A DNA stretch of 64,000 nucleotides from Marinobacter sediminicola (GTDB taxonomy: Bacteria > Pseudomonadota > Gammaproteobacteria > Pseudomonadales > Oleiphilaceae): the NCBI RefSeq assembly GCF_031157525.1, contig NZ_JAVIXR010000001.1, positions 496,001-560,000 of the forward strand, in the 5' to 3' direction. The notes below the pieces were generated by a model. That model did not search any database and was not told where the DNA came from. It was given only the letters and a program-made list of their open reading frames with translations. Position numbers and translations under genes: made by a program. Positions within the stretch are counted from its first letter, which is position 1. Every line of letters starts with the position of its first letter. Shown here one piece after another: positions 1,232 to 8,201 of this stretch.

Positions 1232-1954
1232 TTACTGGCGGGCAATCAGGTTTCCTGCATGTAGGCCACACTCTTTTTGTGTGGCTTCTTCCCACCACCA
1301 GCGGCCTTCCCGCTCGTGCTGTCCTGGCAATACAGGGCGGGTGCAGGGCTGGCAGCCAATACTGACAAACCCCTTTTCGTGCAGCGCGTTGTAGGGGGCT
1401 TCCGATATACGGATGTAGTCCCACACCTCTTTGGATGTCCAGTTCGCCAGGGGATTAAACTTTACCAGTGCCTTGCCGGGGCCAGAGAAGGTTGCGTCTT
1501 CTTGAACAACAGGCACTTCATTTCGGGTTCCCGGGCTTTGATCTTTACGTTGGCCGGTAATCCAGGCATCAACGCTTGCGAGTTTGCGCTTTAGCGGGTT
1601 TACTTTCCGAATCCCGCAGCACTCGCTGTGGCCGTCCTCAAAAAAGCTGAATAAACCCTTTTGGTTGACCAGACTCTGCACTTCATTGGTATCTGGAAAC
1701 AACACTTCAATGGCTATGCCGTAATGCTTGCGAACCCGATCCATGAACTCGTAGGTTTCCGGGTGAAGACGGCCTGTATCCAATGTAAACACTTTCAGGT
1801 TGTCCGTCAGCTTGTGGGCCATTTCGATAAGCACCACGTCTTCGGCGCCACTAAAAGAAATAGCGATGTTGTCATAGCGCTTGAAGGCCGCCTTCAGAAT
1901 TCCCCTTGGGCTTTCACCGGCCAGTTCGCTCTGTAGCTCGTGGATATTGCTCAT
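1232..1954 (-). CDS. cysH: Assimilatory adenylylsulfate (APS) reductase CysH
   Basis: Reduces activated sulfate to sulfite with thioredoxin as electron donor. The 240-residue form starts at the ATG giving MSNIHELQ; an in-frame upstream ATG at 2026 would add 24 residues unlike the family. The Fe-S cysteines of the APS-reducing branch are visible: CC at residues 112-113 and CxxC at 201-204. The catalytic cysteine lies in the C-terminal ECGLH motif (C229). The [4Fe-4S] ligands argue for APS rather than PAPS as substrate. The gene is convergent with cysB, and dyads lie upstream at 2007-2041. Confidence 0.93.
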
Positions 1955-2006
1955 AAAATACGAATACCTTGATGCGGGTTTCGTGCAGGTTAGCATTAAA
2001 TGACTA

Positions 2007-2041
2007 ATTCCATGAAGGAATGACAATCTATATGGTTATAG
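2007..2041 (-). promoter_or_regulatory. Candidate LysR/CysB operator upstream of cysH
   Basis: Two neighbouring dyads lie 53-87 bases upstream of the cysH ATG. The first is ATTCC-N5-GGAAT (2007-2021), a perfect 15-bp dyad containing the T-N11-A signature of LysR-type sites. The second is CTATA-N4-TATAG (2028-2041). Their position suits an activator site next to a -35 region. Binding by CysB is inferred. Confidence 0.4.
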
Positions 2042-2196
2042 CCAAGTGGGCGAGTGAATCCTGGATGACTTGGTGTTTTATCGGGATGCACGATGCTTTT
2101 TGCCCGGATATTTCTTATGATACCGCGTCATAATCAGGGGGCAGGCCATGCTCTCATTCAGACTTAACACTTGAACCATTGAATCAGGAGATCACT

Positions 2197-2811
2197 GTGG
2201 AACTGGCATGTCTTGACCTTGAAGGCGTATTGATCCCGGAAATCTGGATCGCATTTGCAGAAAAAACCGGTATTGAAGAGCTCAAGGCCACCACCCGTGA
2301 CATTCCGGATTACGATGTTCTGATGAAGCAGCGTCTTCGTATTCTGGATGAGCACGGATACGGCCTGCCTGCCATTCAGGAAGTGATCGGCACCCTGGAC
2401 CCGCTGCCAGGCGCCCGTGAGTTTCTGGACTGGCTGCGCGAGCGCTTTCAGGTGGTGATTCTTTCAGACACCTTTTATGAATTCGCTATGCCGCTGATGA
2501 AAAAGCTGGGCTACCCAGCGCTGCTGTGCCACAAGTTGGAAGTTGCCGAGAACGGCCAGATCACCAACTATCTGCTGCGCCAGAGAGACCCCAAACGCCA
2601 GTCGGTGCGTGCCTTCCAGCTATTGAACTATCGCGTTATTGCAGCGGGTGATTCCTACAACGACACCACCATGCTGGGGCAGGCGGAAGCAGGCATTCTG
2701 TTCCACGCACCTAAAAACGTGATTGATGAGTTCCCGCAGTATCCGGCGGTACATGAATTTGAAGATTTGAAGAAAGAATTCCTGAAGGCGAGCGCTGTTC
2801 ACAGCGTTTGA
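2197..2811 (+). CDS. thrH: Phosphoserine phosphatase / homoserine phosphotransferase ThrH
   Basis: HAD-superfamily enzyme. The Pseudomonas homologue hydrolyses phosphoserine and can transfer its phosphate to homoserine, linking serine and threonine synthesis. HAD motif I reads DLEG (D7, E9), with Glu in place of the usual second Asp as in ThrH. Motif II lies in VVILSDTFYEF, and the metal-binding motif is GDSYNDTTML. I chose the GTG at 2197 (204 residues) because AGGAG lies six bases upstream and the N-terminus then matches ThrH; a TTG at 2179 has weaker support. pabB lies convergent downstream, the same cysH-thrH-pabB order as in Pseudomonas. Confidence 0.92.
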   Translation: MELACLDLEGVLIPEIWIAFAEKTGIEELKATTRDIPDYDVLMKQRLRILDEHGYGLPAIQEVIGTLDPLPGAREFLDWLRERFQVVILSDTFYEFAMPLMKKLGYPALLCHKLEVAENGQITNYLLRQRDPKRQSVRAFQLLNYRVIAAGDSYNDTTMLGQAEAGILFHAPKNVIDEFPQYPAVHEFEDLKKEFLKASAVHSV

Positions 2812-2865: not shown

Positions 2866-4269
2866 CTACTCGCTCTGGGTAAGATTCTCCAGGAAATCCA
2901 TCAGTGGTTTTACTTTGGTGAGGGTTTCCTGGTATTCGCTTTCCGGGTCTGAATCCGCAACGATCCCGCCACCGCCCCAACAGCGGATACTTCCTTGCTC
3001 CTGTGCTTGCCCCGTAGCCTTTTCTTTCTCACATAGCATAGTGCGAATAGCAATATTACTATCCAGTGTGTCGTCCAGGCCCCGATAAAACACGGATCCG
3101 CAATAGGGCCCGCGCCAATGGGGCTCAAGCTCCCTGATAATCTCCATGGCTCGAATTTTAGGTGCGCCGGTTATAGAGCCGCCTGGGAAGGCATCGAACA
3201 GCACCTGCATGGGTGAAACGCCCTCCGCCAACTCGGCGCGAATGTGGCTGACCAAGTGATGCACGTTCCGGTAGGACTCAAGGGCAAATAAGCTGTCCAC
3301 GGATACGGACCCGGCCGCAGCGTGCACACTTAAGTCGTTCCTTAGTAAGTCGACAATCATCAGGTTCTCGGCACGGTCCTTCTCGGATGCTTCCAGCTCT
3401 GCCGCATAAGCCATATCGTCGGATGGTGTTGTACCTCTTGGCCGAGTGCCTTTAATCGGGCTGGTTTTCACGGTGCGGCCGCGAATTTCCAGGAAGCGTT
3501 CCGGTGAGATCGACAGAACCGAGGCATAATCGGTTTTCAGAAAAGCGCTGTAAGGTGTTGGGTTGGCTTCGGCCAGCGCCTGAAATGCCGCCCAGGGCGC
3601 TCCTTGATAGCAACCCTGAAACTCCTGGGAAAGATTCACCTGATAACAGTCGCCAGCATTTATGTAGTCCTTGATCACGCCGACACCGTTAACGAATTCT
3701 TCGGCTGGTTGGCGCGACTTGAACGGCGAAATCATTTTCCAGCCTGCCGTCTCCCCAGTCACGGTTTCGCTGGGCACAGGTGTAGTGTGCTGCCACCGGT
3801 GAAGGTTGCTGCGCACCCACTCTGGGCATTCGGGGTGAACCCAAAGGTGATACGTATCGGTGGTTCGGTTGTGGCTTGCAGCCCAAAGATAAAAGCCTGC
3901 AAATAGCAGGGGAGTTGCACTTGCAGGACACAGTGGAACAAGGCGGGGTTCTTTCATGTAGCCGAATTCGTAACTCAGAAAACCCACCCAGCCACCTGTC
4001 AGGTAGGTTTGCGGCTCTTGCGCCGAGCTTTGGTAGCGATGAACCAGGCTTTCCATTTCTGTGGCGAGAGTGTTTGTGTCGAGTACCAAATCAGTATCCG
4101 GCTCAATGATCTTTGTGGCAATCGCACAGGCCGTAAACCCACTAAACGACCCGCGGCCGTTACCAGCCCCAATACTTCCCAGGTAGGCAAAGTCTGATTG
4201 GGTGGCGGCTCGCTCGAGTAGTTGTTGGTAGTCTTCGCGACTTAACATTGAGGAAACAGGAAGTAGCAA
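2866..4269 (-). CDS. pabB: Aminodeoxychorismate synthase component I PabB
   Basis: Converts chorismate and ammonia to 4-amino-4-deoxychorismate for folate synthesis, with the glutaminase PabA supplied elsewhere. The 467-residue protein has the chorismate-binding fold. The PIKGT motif at residues 271-275 carries the lysine that separates PabB from anthranilate synthase TrpE (PIAGT). The C-terminal GGGIVADSDPESEY signature is also present. The start is probably the TTG at 4269, since GGAG lies five bases upstream, whereas the in-frame ATG at 4248 has no ribosome binding site. Convergent with thrH. Confidence 0.92.
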   Translation of the reverse strand: MLLPVSSMLSREDYQQLLERAATQSDFAYLGSIGAGNGRGSFSGFTACAIATKIIEPDTDLVLDTNTLATEMESLVHRYQSSAQEPQTYLTGGWVGFLSYEFGYMKEPRLVPLCPASATPLLFAGFYLWAASHNRTTDTYHLWVHPECPEWVRSNLHRWQHTTPVPSETVTGETAGWKMISPFKSRQPAEEFVNGVGVIKDYINAGDCYQVNLSQEFQGCYQGAPWAAFQALAEANPTPYSAFLKTDYASVLSISPERFLEIRGRTVKTSPIKGTRPRGTTPSDDMAYAAELEASEKDRAENLMIVDLLRNDLSVHAAAGSVSVDSLFALESYRNVHHLVSHIRAELAEGVSPMQVLFDAFPGGSITGAPKIRAMEIIRELEPHWRGPYCGSVFYRGLDDTLDSNIAIRTMLCEKEKATGQAQEQGSIRCWGGGGIVADSDPESEYQETLTKVKPLMDFLENLTQSE

Positions 4270-4455: not shown

Positions 4456-5049
4456 ATGACGTCTTATCTTGGAAAGTCGCTGCAAACCGTTCTTCTACTT
4501 ACTGTGTTTTTTGCTGTTCCGGCCGCAAGCGCCGAGGAAGCGCCCCCGGCTGAATTAACCCCAGAACAGGAAATGGCCATAAAGCTGGAACTGTCGAGAT
4601 ACGCAGTTCTTGGCCAGCAGCAGATACTTAATTTGACTGAGCAAGCAACCGATGAGTATACCGGGACATTGGCCGACTCAGAGCCCAATATGCCGTCGGC
4701 CTGGATGCTTCTTGAGGATGGCGTTACCGTCAAGCGAATCAATATAGATGAGCAGGCAAAGGAGGCGCCGGCTCAGATTCGTATTCTTATGTATCGTGCG
4801 GCCCTTAAATCTGTGGCGCGTCACGGGAAGATTCATGGGTCGGTCATTCTCTACACAGGGAAAATTCGAGAGGGTAGCGATGATGAAGCTTTGGTGATTG
4901 AGTTTGAGCACCGCTTGGGCATTTCAGGTAACAAAGTTGTTCCATATCAGGCGGAAAATGGCCAGGTGACCTATGGGGAGCCGGTTACTACTGAGAAGCC
5001 TTTTCAGATTTTTCATGACAGCAAGCCCGAAGCGAACACCGCGAATTGA
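4456..5049 (+). CDS. Exported protein of unknown function
   Basis: I do not recognise this 197-residue protein. It begins with a clear Sec signal peptide (a basic and hydrophobic stretch, then AASA before EEAPP at about residue 26), so it is probably periplasmic or secreted. The mature part starts with an acidic, Pro/Glu-rich segment (residues 27-45). A probably folded alpha/beta core at about 75-175 follows (SAWMLLEDG, GSVILYTG, ALVIEFEHRLG), then a polar tail. There are no cysteines in the mature chain. It lies divergent from pabB and upstream of another exported protein on the same strand. Confidence 0.75.
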   Translation: MTSYLGKSLQTVLLLTVFFAVPAASAEEAPPAELTPEQEMAIKLELSRYAVLGQQQILNLTEQATDEYTGTLADSEPNMPSAWMLLEDGVTVKRINIDEQAKEAPAQIRILMYRAALKSVARHGKIHGSVILYTGKIREGSDDEALVIEFEHRLGISGNKVVPYQAENGQVTYGEPVTTEKPFQIFHDSKPEANTAN

Positions 5050-5224
5050 TGTGAGAGCCAGTCGTCATTCGTTACGGCATGTAAGTGCAGTGTTAACGAA
5101 GTGTGAATGCGGTCACGGACTAGGACTGTAAAACAATCTTAAATGGAATTGTGGATTAACGATCTCCACACCCAAAAGTAAAAACTCAGCAAGAAAAACA
5201 AAATGAGTTTATAAGGAGAACAAT

Positions 5225-6088
5225 ATGAAAGGCCTGAAAAGAATTGCTCTGATCACTGCTATGGCTGCTGCCCCTTTCGCAGCTAACGCAGAACTGCAAG
5301 CTATGAACGACACCGCAATGGGCGACGTAACCGGTCAGGCCGGTGTCACCATTGAGCTGGAAACCAAAGTGTCTATTGGCCAGTTCAAGTACACCGACGA
5401 AGGTTCCTTCGCAGTGAACGATATCGTTCTTGGTGGTGCTGGTGTGACTACAATCGGCGCTGGTGCTGGCTTTAATGACCTGCTGGACCAGATCAAGGTT
5501 GATATCGACATTGCTGACGACGGCGACGCGATCATTCACGTTAGTACACTTGACAGCAATCCGATCGATTGGGGTCTGAACATTGGTTCCATGGAGTTGC
5601 TGGCTGGTAATACTGGATCAGACAGCACAACTCTGATTTCGAATCTGAGTGGCTTCGGTATGTTGGCACAGCTTGACATTCGTGTTGACACTGCAACTGA
5701 TCACCTGAACCTGGTAGCAGCATTTAGCGTTGAAAATATGGACTTTGATGTTGATTTCTTGGGTGTGGGTGTTCGTGGTCTGAAGATCACCGGTGCTGGA
5801 GCTGATGCTGATGCAGTAGCTATGTACACAGCTAATGGCTATGATTTTGGGAATATGCCAGCGGCGCAGCAGGCTGTATTTGCAGGGTTTGCCAATGCTA
5901 ACCTTGACGTATACAAAGGTAACGGCCTAGGCGCCTCCACCGCAACAGACGTACTCCGGATTGATGTTAAAAACATCTTCATGGATGTGTCGGTTGCCAG
6001 CATCGAAATCGGTGGAGCTTCTATCGGTTCCGTTGCACTTGACAACGTAGCAGTAACTAACACCAAGCTGGCTGTATACGGTCACTAA
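5225..6088 (+). CDS. Exported DUF6160-like (FilA-like) surface protein
   Basis: A 287-residue protein with a classical signal peptide cleaved around ANA|EL (residue 22). The mature N-terminus carries AMGDVTGQAGVTIEL, a motif I recall from DUF6160/FilA-like proteins of Marinobacter and Acinetobacter. The rest is cysteine-free, acidic, and rich in Gly, Asp, Val and Ala in alternating beta-like patterns, ending in LAVYGH. It is probably a secreted or outer-surface beta-rich protein, possibly pilus- or adhesion-related, but function is unproven. The ribosome binding site is strong (AAGGAG before the ATG) and a strong terminator follows, which suits an abundant, independently expressed product. 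Confidence 0.7.
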   Translation: MKGLKRIALITAMAAAPFAANAELQAMNDTAMGDVTGQAGVTIELETKVSIGQFKYTDEGSFAVNDIVLGGAGVTTIGAGAGFNDLLDQIKVDIDIADDGDAIIHVSTLDSNPIDWGLNIGSMELLAGNTGSDSTTLISNLSGFGMLAQLDIRVDTATDHLNLVAAFSVENMDFDVDFLGVGVRGLKITGAGADADAVAMYTANGYDFGNMPAAQQAVFAGFANANLDVYKGNGLGASTATDVLRIDVKNIFMDVSVASIEIGGASIGSVALDNVAVTNTKLAVYGH

Positions 6089-6112
6089 TCTGACCTGAAC
6101 ACCAGTAGTGTT

Positions 6113-6141
6113 AAAACGCCCCGTTCTTCGGGGCGTTTTTT
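6113..6141 (+). terminator. Rho-independent terminator of the DUF6160-like gene
   Basis: An eleven-base stem (AAAACGCCCCG pairing with CGGGGCGTTTT), a five-base TTCTT loop and a T-run, starting 24 bases after the stop codon. Confidence 0.9.
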
Positions 6142-6182
6142 GTTATTGGAAAAATAAAAGCGCAGTGCGTACGAAAAGCAAT

Positions 6183-6222
6183 AAAAAAACGGCAGCTTGC
6201 AAATACAAGCTACCGTTTAGTT
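6183..6222 (-). terminator. Terminator of the convergent 6252-6926 gene
   Basis: On the minus strand, AAACGGTAGCTTG pairs with CAAGCTGCCGTTT with one internal mismatch and is followed by a run of T. It lies about 30 bases beyond the stop of the minus-strand gene and is separate from the plus-strand terminator at 6113. Confidence 0.85.
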
Positions 6223-6251
6223 CACGCCTGTGTCGGGAAGGGTGCTGCTAC

Positions 6252-6926
6252 TTACTGATCAGGCACCCTGATAGAAAGATCAAACCCACCACCCGGCCTT
6301 GGCGTTAGCTGAATCGGCCCTTCATTTATCCCTTGTGGAAGATGAATCTGATCAATCCCCGGCGGGTTGCCGATGGAGAAGTTCAGGTTCTGCCCATCAA
6401 AACCTATGCCCAACTGATCGTTAAGAAACGATTGGGTGAAGGGTTCATCCGGAATCTGCATCTGCTGGCCGAAGATTAAAGGTGGAAGGTTTGGCGTGAA
6501 GTCTGCCGGCGGCTGGGCCCTGGCCAGTTCCTCCTGGGGAAGCAGCAGCGCCCGGCGAAGGAATTCCTCTTCAGCGCTAACCAGTGCATCGGATTGGTTT
6601 TCGTCGGTAAGGCGTTGCAGACCTTCGCGGTAGGCTTCTTCCTCCGCTTCGGTAACAACCGGCTCACCCGGGGAAATGGTAAGAGCGCGGATGATGCGCT
6701 GACGGTCGGCTTCCGATTTGCGACCTTCTCTGGGTACAACAATAACCGCAGAATCTTTAACGTAGGTATCAACCATCTCATCGGAGGTCATGGTCTGAAC
6801 GCCCGCAAACACCGGTATTGAGGCGGCTGCAAGAGTGGCCGCAATGGCCGCTGCGATAGGGGTTGAACTTTTATCAAGGCTGGCCACGCGGAGCTTGTGC
6901 GCGCCTGGCAGGTGTTGGTGGTTCAT
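6252..6926 (-). CDS. Exported protein of unknown function, proline-rich C-terminus
   Basis: A 224-residue protein I cannot place in a characterised family. A polar, basic N-terminus of about 22 residues precedes a hydrophobic Ala-rich segment ending in VFAG near residue 42, consistent with a long signal peptide. Then come a segment with TSDEMVDTYVKDS and VIVVPREG (about 45-68), a Glu-rich probably helical region (70-135), and a Pro/Gly/Gln-rich C-terminal part with many Ile/Leu and a GGGFDLSIRV end. AGAGG lies seven bases before the ATG. It converges on the DUF6160-like gene; a joint role at the cell surface is inferred from position only. Confidence 0.7.
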   Translation of the reverse strand: MNHQHLPGAHKLRVASLDKSSTPIAAAIAATLAAASIPVFAGVQTMTSDEMVDTYVKDSAVIVVPREGRKSEADRQRIIRALTISPGEPVVTEAEEEAYREGLQRLTDENQSDALVSAEEEFLRRALLLPQEELARAQPPADFTPNLPPLIFGQQMQIPDEPFTQSFLNDQLGIGFDGQNLNFSIGNPPGIDQIHLPQGINEGPIQLTPRPGGGFDLSIRVPDQ

Positions 6927-7169: not shown

Positions 7170-8201
7170 ATGAGCAGACTAATCCGTAGCCGTTGGCAGC
7201 GCTGGATCAACCGTCGAATTCCGCGCTCCGACGTGCAGCGATTCACCCAGAAAAATCTTTTCATCTTACCCACGGCGGCTGGCGTGGTATTCGGCGTGCT
7301 GTTGCTGATTATGCTGCTTACCGCCATTAATTATCAGAACAGTCTGATTTATCTGGTTACTTTTCTCCTCGGGACCGTGTTTGTGGGTGCCATGCACCAA
7401 ACCCACCGAAACCTGTCTGGTCTGGAGCTTACCTTGGTTCAAGCGGGGGAGGGATTTGCTGGGGATGACATTATCTTTCGATTACGGGCCGCTGCCAGTA
7501 AAGACGACGCCATAGCCATTACGCTTTCGGATGGCGACACACAGGTAAGCTTGGGCCATGTGCCTTCCCGGCAGTCTGCAGACGTGGCTTTGCCGGTGGG
7601 TTCGGCCTTCCGGGGTTACCTGCGGCCGGACAGCATTCGAATTGAAACCCGTTTCCCCTTTGGTTTACTCAAGGCCTGGTCCTGGATGAGGCCGGTTTCA
7701 GCGGGTGTTGTGTTTCCCAGGCCGGTTGCCGCTCCCGATGTTGCTAGCGCCGTAGATGATGGCGATCAAACGTCAAGCACCCGTTCGCCCGAGGGTAATG
7801 ATCATGCGGAATTACGGCCTTGGCGTGAGGGGGATATGAGCCAACGCGTTATGTGGAAACGATTTGCACGCAGCGGCCAGATGGTGGTGGCTGATTGGGA
7901 AGCCGATAAGGGCAGCCCCCATTGGTTGGATTTTAATGCGTTTTCCGGCACTGACCACGAACTACGGCTCAGTTACTTGTCCTGGCTCGTGATTGAGCGC
8001 GGCAAGAGTGGGGCACGCTTTGGTTTGAACCTGCCGGGGCAAGTTATAGAGCCAGATTCTGGCCAAGCCCATGCAACCCGTTGCCTTCGGGCGCTGGCGG
8101 TTTGGGGTGAAGAAAAACCAAGGGATATGCTCAGAGCGGCCCACGGAACACGCAGCAATACAGATTCGGGTGGGAAAGCGATGGCAGGGGCCAGAACATG
8201 A
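7170..8201 (+). CDS. DUF58 domain membrane protein
   Basis: A 343-residue protein with two transmembrane segments near residues 30-75 and a C-terminal DUF58 domain, recognised by LRPWREGDMSQRVMWKRFAR at about 213-232. DUF58 proteins usually occur with a MoxR AAA ATPase and a transglutaminase-like protein, and are thought to take part in chaperone-like or envelope maturation complexes. Its last bases overlap the next gene (ATGA), the usual DUF58-TgpA pairing. No moxR gene lies upstream; the preceding 243 bases are non-coding and the next gene points away. AGGGA precedes the ATG. Confidence 0.85.
   Translation: MSRLIRSRWQRWINRRIPRSDVQRFTQKNLFILPTAAGVVFGVLLLIMLLTAINYQNSLIYLVTFLLGTVFVGAMHQTHRNLSGLELTLVQAGEGFAGDDIIFRLRAAASKDDAIAITLSDGDTQVSLGHVPSRQSADVALPVGSAFRGYLRPDSIRIETRFPFGLLKAWSWMRPVSAGVVFPRPVAAPDVASAVDDGDQTSSTRSPEGNDHAELRPWREGDMSQRVMWKRFARSGQMVVADWEADKGSPHWLDFNAFSGTDHELRLSYLSWLVIERGKSGARFGLNLPGQVIEPDSGQAHATRCLRALAVWGEEKPRDMLRAAHGTRSNTDSGGKAMAGART

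Follow-up and report, generated by a model that had tools for sequence, protein, structure and literature searches.

A Gene Pair of Marinobacter sediminicola as a Predicted Cassette of the Fil Filament System

Introduction

What is the role of three exported proteins encoded side by side between pabB and a DUF58 gene in Marinobacter sediminicola, and do they belong to one system? The question is raised by a stretch of 64,000 nucleotides (RefSeq assembly GCF_031157525.1, contig NZ_JAVIXR010000001.1, positions 496,001 to 560,000 of the forward strand), the whole of which is called the window below. A sequence-only reading had placed three genes there, each with a signal peptide, and had proposed that they might form a surface or appendage system specific to this lineage. 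The three open reading frames (ORFs) are present at the positions given and encode 197, 287 and 224 residues, genes 1 and 2 on the plus strand and gene 3 on the minus strand, and each protein begins with a Sec-type signal peptide as judged by eye. Genomes are given G codes (G000 is the genome that contains the window), and codes such as C11 denote contigs.

The evidence points, with a probability of about 0.62, to genes 1 and 2 being a cassette of a Fil system. The gene 2 protein would be exported by Sec, after which the C39 peptidase FilB would cut off a second leader (residues 23–38) in the periplasm. The mature, beta-rich subunit would leave the cell through the FapF-like porin FilC and assemble outside into a thin surface filament related to the fibre of PDB entry 9xfv, and the gene 1 protein would act as its cognate partner in the periplasm, most likely as a chaperone or assembly factor. 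The conserved gene 3 lies next to this pair. The features concerned are as follows:

4456..5049, plus strand: gene 1, 197 residues, exported alpha/beta protein; predicted to serve gene 2 as cognate partner (chaperone)
5225..6088, plus strand: gene 2, 287 residues, DUF6160 (FilA-like) protein, predicted filament subunit (PF19657; profile match to 9xfv)
5225..5290, plus strand: Sec signal peptide of gene 2, residues 1–22, by eye; low model confidence at residues 1–40
5291..5338, plus strand: post-Sec leader of gene 2, residues 23–38, ELQAMNDTAMGDVTGQ; spaced like C39 leaders; FilB predicted to cut after Q38
5339..6085, plus strand: predicted mature gene 2 subunit, residues 39–287, mostly beta, C-terminus YGH
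6252..6926, minus strand: gene 3, 224 residues, exported, Pro-rich; conserved neighbour

Results and Discussion

Proposed place of gene 2 in the Fil system

Gene 2 was matched by the DUF6160 model (PF19657) with 119.9 bits (E=5.7e-35, cut-off 27) over model positions 1–95 of 96, and the family label given in the sequence-only reading therefore stands; the resemblance to FilA that came with it lies below threshold (see below). A type IV pilin reading was set aside because no prepilin-type N-terminus was seen by eye, and a chaperone–usher reading was rejected because no such family was found among genes 1–3 in Pfam or NCBIfam. No Fap model of these two collections matched gene 2 at E≤1, the presence of FapB, FapC and FapE models in them being unchecked.

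FilF has reportedly been studied as a vaccine candidate (PMC4751259). In the literature, Acinetobacter Fil comprises A1S_0690–0695, is described as "putative type III pili" and has A1S_0690 as FilA; expression data place its operon among those highly produced in pellicle cells (PMC4256060, PMC5376624) and indicate that FilA transcription increases with mucin (PMC5757984). No function of Fil is stated in the consulted passages of these three papers. The only mention of DUF6160 found in the literature was in a list of domains near CRISPR arrays, no publication was found that combined at least four of the terms FilB, FilC, FilD, pilus and Acinetobacter, and literature searches yielded no mechanism for Fil. 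Among the matches listed for the Fap and C39 literature, no Fil term occurred.

In the genome of the window a stand-alone C39 peptidase (G000:C11:289291–290088) is encoded on the same contig, about 210 kb from gene 2. Its best NCBIfam model was FilB (275 bits; FapD 122.7 bits), and the Cys, His and Asp residues are visible by eye in C39-like contexts. The next two genes encode proteins matched by FilC (352 bits, compared with 74.2 for FapF) and by FilD (551 bits), and a gene for a MalM/DUF4124 protein comes after them; all FilB, FilC, FilD, FapD and FapF scores in this genome lie under the model cut-offs. ExbB/ExbD/TonB-like and TPR genes upstream of filB were considered as Fil parts and dropped because their linkage is inconstant: a TonB-like gene lies about 6 kb from filB in G036, and the stretch retrieved from G010 gave no match to one.

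Genes 1 to 3 were surveyed in 77 genomes (the own genome, 48 of the genus and 28 of other genera). A FilB with an identity of 81 % or more and a FilC with 71 % or more were present in 38 of 38 DUF6160-positive and in 0 of 9 DUF6160-negative Marinobacter genomes (Fisher p=7e-10 for these 47 genomes; lists compiled by hand from the search tables). The two incomplete genomes G027 (FilB fragments with a stop) and G033 were left out of this count, and DUF6160-negative status was assigned from the gene 2 search only for G041, G042, G043 and G045 and from a Pfam search for the others. At E≤1e-20 FilB was absent from the DUF6160-negative genomes except for relatives of 38–40 % identity in G030, G042 and G045. 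In the DUF58 tree the trait changes at least six times on well-supported branches, and FilB changes together with DUF6160 in six of six independent pairs (sign test p=0.031, the minimum for six pairs). Beyond the genus, DUF6160, FilB and FilC occur together in G054 and G064.

In G030, G045 and G042 (L231, L232 and L233, respectively) the 38–40 % FilB relative stands beside a distant FilC/FapF-like protein; judged by these neighbours, this second C39 peptidase locus is probably a Fap locus.

If the three genes encoded unrelated exported housekeeping proteins without a common system, the lack of a family for genes 1 and 3 and the way in which gene 3 tracks a core gene would be expected. The locus is, however, present or absent as a whole together with distant FilB and FilC genes and distant DUF6160 paralogues, and we regard this explanation as very improbable.

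Several results count against the Fil assignment. The NCBIfam FilA model NF050077 gave 38.5 bits over full length with gene 2 and missed its cut-off of 220, and in the own genome a long distance separates the fil genes from the cassette. In G036 the FilB reading frame is broken into two frames. In G050 (75 % complete) DUF6160 and a piece of FilC were found, FilB not, and the FilB search outside the genus left out the DUF6160-positive genomes G086, G214, G285 and G326.

Gene order in other families

In G083, a member of another family, four DUF6160 genes (30.9–49.4 bits, cut-off 27) stand directly before filB-filC-filD. This fil operon is divergent from pabB, beyond which thrH and cysH follow, and in the window these three genes are placed likewise with respect to gene 2. 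In G072, a member of a third family, a protein of 287 residues with signal peptide and leader (L234, 5858–6721, minus strand) is encoded directly before filB-filC-filD; its leader ends ...SGVTGQ, with DG at +1/+2. The relatives in G083 and G072 are thus in an operon with filB-filC-filD, whereas gene 2 itself lies far from filB. Since the window and G083 share the pabB–thrH–cysH relation, gene 2 may, on this comparison of gene order, stand at the old fil locus, with filBCD elsewhere in Marinobacter; the pabB neighbourhood argument draws on one outside genome (G083). The closeness of gene 2 to the G083 proteins is limited: BLAST similarity was confined to about 45–55 residues of the N-terminal region and to two of the four G083 FilAs (E=3e-8 and 1e-4), a further point that tells against the assignment.

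The leader of gene 2 and its predicted processing

After the signal peptide the gene 2 protein continues with ELQAMNDTAMGDVTGQ and then AGV, the leader ending in TGQ with A at +1. A C39 peptidase structure report describes Leu-12, Leu-7 and Val-4 of the leader as sitting in a hydrophobic groove (PMC6363468). Because the spacing in the gene 2 leader agrees with this published C39 rule, FilB is predicted to cut after Q38. Hydrophobic residues at -12, -7 and -4 and Gly at -2 were found in 73 of 73 gene 2 relatives (72 of 80 fetched loci, eight near-duplicates having been removed, plus the window); the site-finding pattern itself fixes -4 (V/I/L) and -2 (G) and restricts -1, so that the free tests are -12, -7 and -15. 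Among the ORFs of at least 80 residues in the window, only gene 2 carries the pattern. When 21 further proteins were compared with it, 17 fitted, three were unmatched and one was anchored at the wrong place. The four that did not fit are the G083 FilAs, three of which, by eye, keep -12, -7 and -2 with Ala at -4, the fourth being degenerate.

The leader might instead remain uncleaved and serve as an unstructured tether or as a donor strand that joins neighbouring subunits. Gln stands at -1 in 73 of 73 relatives; it is unusual for C39 substrates, whose leaders have Gly, Ala or Ser there. The low model confidence at residues 1–40 would also suit a free or swapped strand. The leader lies, moreover, inside the PF19657 profile, and its conservation among profile matches arises partly by construction. 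These points detract from the cleavage proposed above. Against an uncleaved leader stand the C39 spacing at -12, -7, -4 and -2, the agreement between FilB and DUF6160 in 47 of 47 Marinobacter genomes, and the absence of residues before +1 from the deposited 9xfv chain, from which disordered residues may have been omitted; retention of the leader is accordingly judged quite unlikely.

G214 and G326 (L181, L193, L194, L198 and L206) each gave at least 15 matches to DUF6160, of which 15 were scored. The proteins read are about 100–130 residues long and have the leader in common, and the remainder differs; such short proteins suggest that the leader could be a portable export or processing signal.

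Relationship of gene 2 to the 9xfv filament

A profile of the gene 2 family (A2) was searched against 177,635 distinct PDB sequences, and 9xfv_A was the sole match at E≤10 (E=2.1e-5). The entry holds 25 chains, is described as "bacteria pilus (like)" and as a "Pilus-like-alpha" filament, and comes from a karst cave; no publication for it was found in literature searches. With a broader, overlapping profile 9xfv was again the best match (E=2.9e-4; other match E=0.13). The alignment covers both the N- and the C-terminus. The 9xfv chain begins DGVSI, and its D aligns to +1 after TGQ; the relatives read similarly across this position (TGQ|DGIDI in two of the four G083 FilAs and TGQ|DGIQI in G072, the stroke marking the predicted cut). 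A chain that starts at +1 is at most an indirect sign of leader cleavage.

The AlphaFold2 model of gene 2 (73 sequences) has a predicted local distance difference test score (pLDDT) of 88, is confident from residue 41 onwards and consists mostly of beta structure with long strands. Its top PDB match in Foldseek was 9xfv_A (E=3.8e-4, probability 0.97). Structure prediction, which the sequence-only reading had proposed, thus agrees with the profile search in its ranking; the superposition is poor (template modelling scores 0.15/0.24, root-mean-square deviation 15.7).

This poor fit bears on whether an ordered filament is formed at all. Gene 2 could be a surface or biofilm-matrix protein exported by Fil that forms no ordered pilus, its match to 9xfv arising from shared beta-strand repeats. 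Such a protein would be in keeping with several observations that weaken the filament proposal: 9xfv was not among the best 50 VIA-align matches of the gene 2 model, which were middling and mostly barrels and OspA sheets; the single gene 2 sequence (phmmer) had no PDB match at E≤10; and 9xfv was not found at E≤1 with one G083 FilA as query. Proteins with the leader also range from 799 down to about 100–130 residues and are unlikely all to be pilins. Shared repeats sit less well with the recovery of 9xfv as best PDB match by two overlapping profiles, aligned at both termini, or with a chain that begins exactly at the predicted mature N-terminus, and the non-pilus explanation is considered unlikely. 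A surface filament related to 9xfv remains the preferred reading for gene 2.

The own genome carries further DUF6160 genes on C8, C36, C22, C16 and C1. Four adjacent exported proteins of 397, 359, 185 and 799 residues are encoded on C16 (L156, 3033–8282, minus strand), next to a birA-like biotin ligase gene and a gene for type III pantothenate kinase. Each has a signal peptide and a similar leader, which ends in SGQ or TGQ in three of them and in DGA in the 359-residue protein; Pfam DUF6160 was matched in three of the four, one just under the cut-off. These proteins are probably further Fil cargo. On C8 (L157, 9050–10861, minus strand) an exported protein of 603 residues with DUF6801 and choice-of-anchor D is encoded directly upstream of a gene 2 paralogue.

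Co-inheritance and exchange of genes 1 and 2

Single-sequence searches of the 77 genomes detected genes 1, 2 and 3 in 32, 40 and 41 of them, respectively. The counts for genes 2 and 3 include a genome of another genus (G054) as well as fragments, which affect both genes in G027 and gene 3 in G041. After removal of the fragments and G054, genes 2 and 3 share an identical set of 38 Marinobacter genomes, the own genome included. By coordinates gene 1 adjoins gene 2 in 32 of these 38, and a profile adds five of the other six (G047 left out); gene 1 was found at none of nine fetched loci without the cassette. Of the 80 loci fetched from named records, 55 have the order pabB, gene 1, gene 2, gene 3, DUF58; two lack one or two of the genes (short fetched DNA), and 23 are gene 2 relatives elsewhere. 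A scattering of the genes without co-occurrence, allowed for in the sequence-only reading, was not seen.

Nine Marinobacter genomes with a completeness of at least 95 % have no intact copy of genes 1, 2 or 3. In eight of them pabB directly adjoins DUF58, and the ninth, G041, retains a gene 3 fragment between the two (G041:C91:4697–4852). This fragment and the FilB pieces with an internal stop in G027 (G027:C73:9944–10450) are remnants of a lost or incompletely assembled system.

Of the 55 loci with this order, L117 and L114 (whose pabB is split) were set aside, and divergence was compared across the remaining 53 and the window, 54 loci in all. After removal of pabB and DUF58, pairwise distances for genes 1 and 2 show a partial r of 0.83 (observed r reached in 0 of 999 permutations), and those of gene 3 with genes 1 and 2 give 0.14 and 0.15 (10 and 15 of 999). 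The nearest row is identical for genes 1 and 2 at 30 of 54 loci and for genes 2 and 3 at 19 of 54. The loci L141 and L143 share 87 % identity in PabB, 96 % in gene 3 and 92 % in DUF58, compared with 25 % in gene 1 and 51 % in gene 2, so close species can differ in the cassette block alone. Their DNA identity of about 0.9 falls to 0.35–0.5 at gene 1, climbs where gene 2 encodes its signal and leader (5' end), falls again and recovers around the 3' end of gene 2; such sharp breakpoints were followed in four pairs chosen from the most discordant. Cassette and flank trees conflict: approximately unbiased (AU) tests rejected the flank clade on the cassette data (p-AU 9e-104) and the cassette clade on the flank data (p-AU 1e-61), the groups having been named after the trees had been viewed. 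Genes 1 and 2 behave as one co-inherited unit that is swapped between species as a block. In some Marinobacter genomes (L169, L170, L171, L173 and L174) the cassette contains two different tandem DUF6160 genes together with a very divergent gene 1.

Gene 1 as the predicted partner of the subunit

Family searches, also proposed in the sequence-only reading, gave DUF6160 for gene 2 and no Pfam or NCBIfam family at E≤1 for gene 1 or gene 3. Against PDB sequences (hmmsearch), gene 1 gave partial matches of gp41 constructs to its long helix (E=0.003–0.017), which were taken as chance. The AlphaFold2 model (pLDDT 86) contains a long helix, a second helix and mainly antiparallel-looking strands, the topology being read from strand order only. 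Since the protein is exported and co-inherited with gene 2, it would most simply be a cognate periplasmic chaperone or assembly factor, one fitted to its own subunit allele. Gene 1 is nearly confined to Marinobacter (matched in 2 of 321 genomes of the class, the own genome being one), and to this extent the claim of lineage specificity holds; it fails for DUF6160, which occurs with FilB and FilC in other families.

The role proposed for gene 1 is weakened by its fold matches, which are weak and NTF2/cystatin-like (best E of 0.29 in Foldseek, best Z of 5.2 in VIA-align), and by a distant gene-1-like exported protein in G077 (L177, 1378–1935), a genome without a DUF6160 match. From this relative, the fold of gene 1 may belong to a wider family.

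The G077 protein would also suit a situation in which genes 1 and 2 diverge together merely because one recombination tract covers both, with no functional tie. The two genes are adjacent, and pabB lies within the exchanged tract in some pairs (L076 vs L122). Gene 3 is equally close to gene 2, however, and does not diverge with it, and of the 38 Marinobacter genomes that have Fil, 37 were found to carry gene 1 next to gene 2. Hitch-hiking of this kind is therefore a possibility that we hold to be doubtful, and a functional partnership of genes 1 and 2 is preferred.

Gene 3 as a conserved neighbour

Gene 3 shares its set of 38 Marinobacter genomes with gene 2, yet it tracks the core gene DUF58. 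Beyond Marinobacter it was found in one of four FilB genomes (G054; not G064, G072 or G083) and in none of 25 genomes of other genera from which FilB was absent at E≤1e-20; the G054 protein sat in the query alignment, which inflated its score, and the unbiased first match had E=1.6e-4. Because gene 3 evolves with DUF58 and not with genes 1 and 2, a single three-protein system is unsupported. The surface or appendage role proposed for all three proteins thus finds support for gene 2, through its 9xfv homologue and its co-occurrence with Fil, and gene 1 is tied to gene 2; a share of gene 3 in it is unsupported.

Expression signals and flanking genes

The signals around gene 2 and the genes that flank the cassette are as follows:

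5212..5218, plus strand: TAAGGAG, Shine–Dalgarno sequence of gene 2; core matched over 6 bases at 51 of 56 loci
6113..6139, plus strand: intrinsic terminator of gene 2 (hairpin scan, shuffles)
6187..6218, minus strand: intrinsic terminator of gene 3 (hairpin scan, shuffles)
1232..2026, minus strand: cysH (PAPS reductase), PF01507; conserved flank; homologue beyond thrH in G083 (ORF lists)
2179..2811, plus strand: thrH-like HAD hydrolase, PF00702; conserved flank; homologue beyond pabB in G083 (ORF lists)
2866..4269, minus strand: pabB (chorismate-binding enzyme), PF00425; conserved flank; also borders the G083 fil operon
7170..8201, plus strand: DUF58 gene; conserved flank; served as species marker

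The ribosome binding site of gene 2 is strong, as had been noticed from the sequence, and a 6-base match to the Shine–Dalgarno core precedes the gene at 51 of the 56 orthologous loci. Both hairpins were more stable in folding than 200 of 200 shuffles (z=-4.9 for gene 2 and -6.4 for gene 3). They had been taken as two terminators that indicate high, independent expression of the middle gene, and this idea was rejected: genes 2 and 3 are convergent, 6113–6139 ends gene 2, and 6218–6187 on the minus strand ends gene 3. No terminator turned up between genes 1 and 2 in a simple scan, and separate expression of gene 2 is therefore unsupported.

The surroundings had been described as conserved core. 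pabB, the thrH-like HAD hydrolase gene and cysH are ordinary genes and agree with this description; the DUF58 label fell short, with 20.0 bits for PF01882 against a Pfam cut-off of 23.4.

Comparison with known systems

As in Acinetobacter Fil, a DUF6160/FilA-type subunit is accompanied by FilB (C39 peptidase), FilC and FilD, all matched by NCBIfam models. The Marinobacter proteins differ in that they lie under the cut-off of every Fil model, that gene 1 is an added partner, and that the genes for subunits lie scattered, with filBCD a long way off in the own genome. With Pseudomonas Fap (FapA–F) the system shares a periplasmic C39 peptidase and an outer-membrane channel, FilB resembling FapD and FilC resembling FapF at sub-cut-off scores. 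PMC5557850 describes FapD as periplasmic and required for secretion, calls its target unclear and notes that Fap proteins are without canonical C39 sequences. Fil cargo, in contrast, has a leader-like motif, and no Fap model of Pfam or NCBIfam matched gene 2 at E≤1.

The 9xfv chain is similar to the gene 2 profile in sequence at both ends and starts at the predicted mature N-terminus; it differs in length (173 vs about 249 residues) and superposes poorly as a whole. The gene 2 leader has the hydrophobic -12, -7 and -4 residues and the Gly at -2 of double-glycine C39 (PCAT/AMS) leaders. Unlike these, it follows a Sec signal, hence the periplasmic reading, and has Gln at -1; unlike the PCAT/AMS C39 domains, FilB is a stand-alone enzyme and not a domain of an ABC transporter.

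Conclusion

Judged by these comparisons, Fil in Marinobacter appears to be a dispersed system related to Fap, and a variant of a known, uncharacterised kind. There is an even chance that Fil constitutes a filament-secretion pathway of its own, whose dispersed cargo bears a second leader of double-glycine-like type that a C39 peptidase reads in the periplasm after Sec export, and that FilA cassettes with cognate chaperones are swapped between species; the leader would then hint at recognition of the FapD type. Diversification of the cassette and its transfer from one species to another would be expected for a structure exposed at the surface, and the observed exchange fits selection on such a structure. 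For a system annotated as a "putative pilus system", the present work ties the subunit to a solved filament and names a predicted processing enzyme and a probable recognition sequence. It also connects Fil with the Fap amyloid exporter, whose peptidase target is called unclear.

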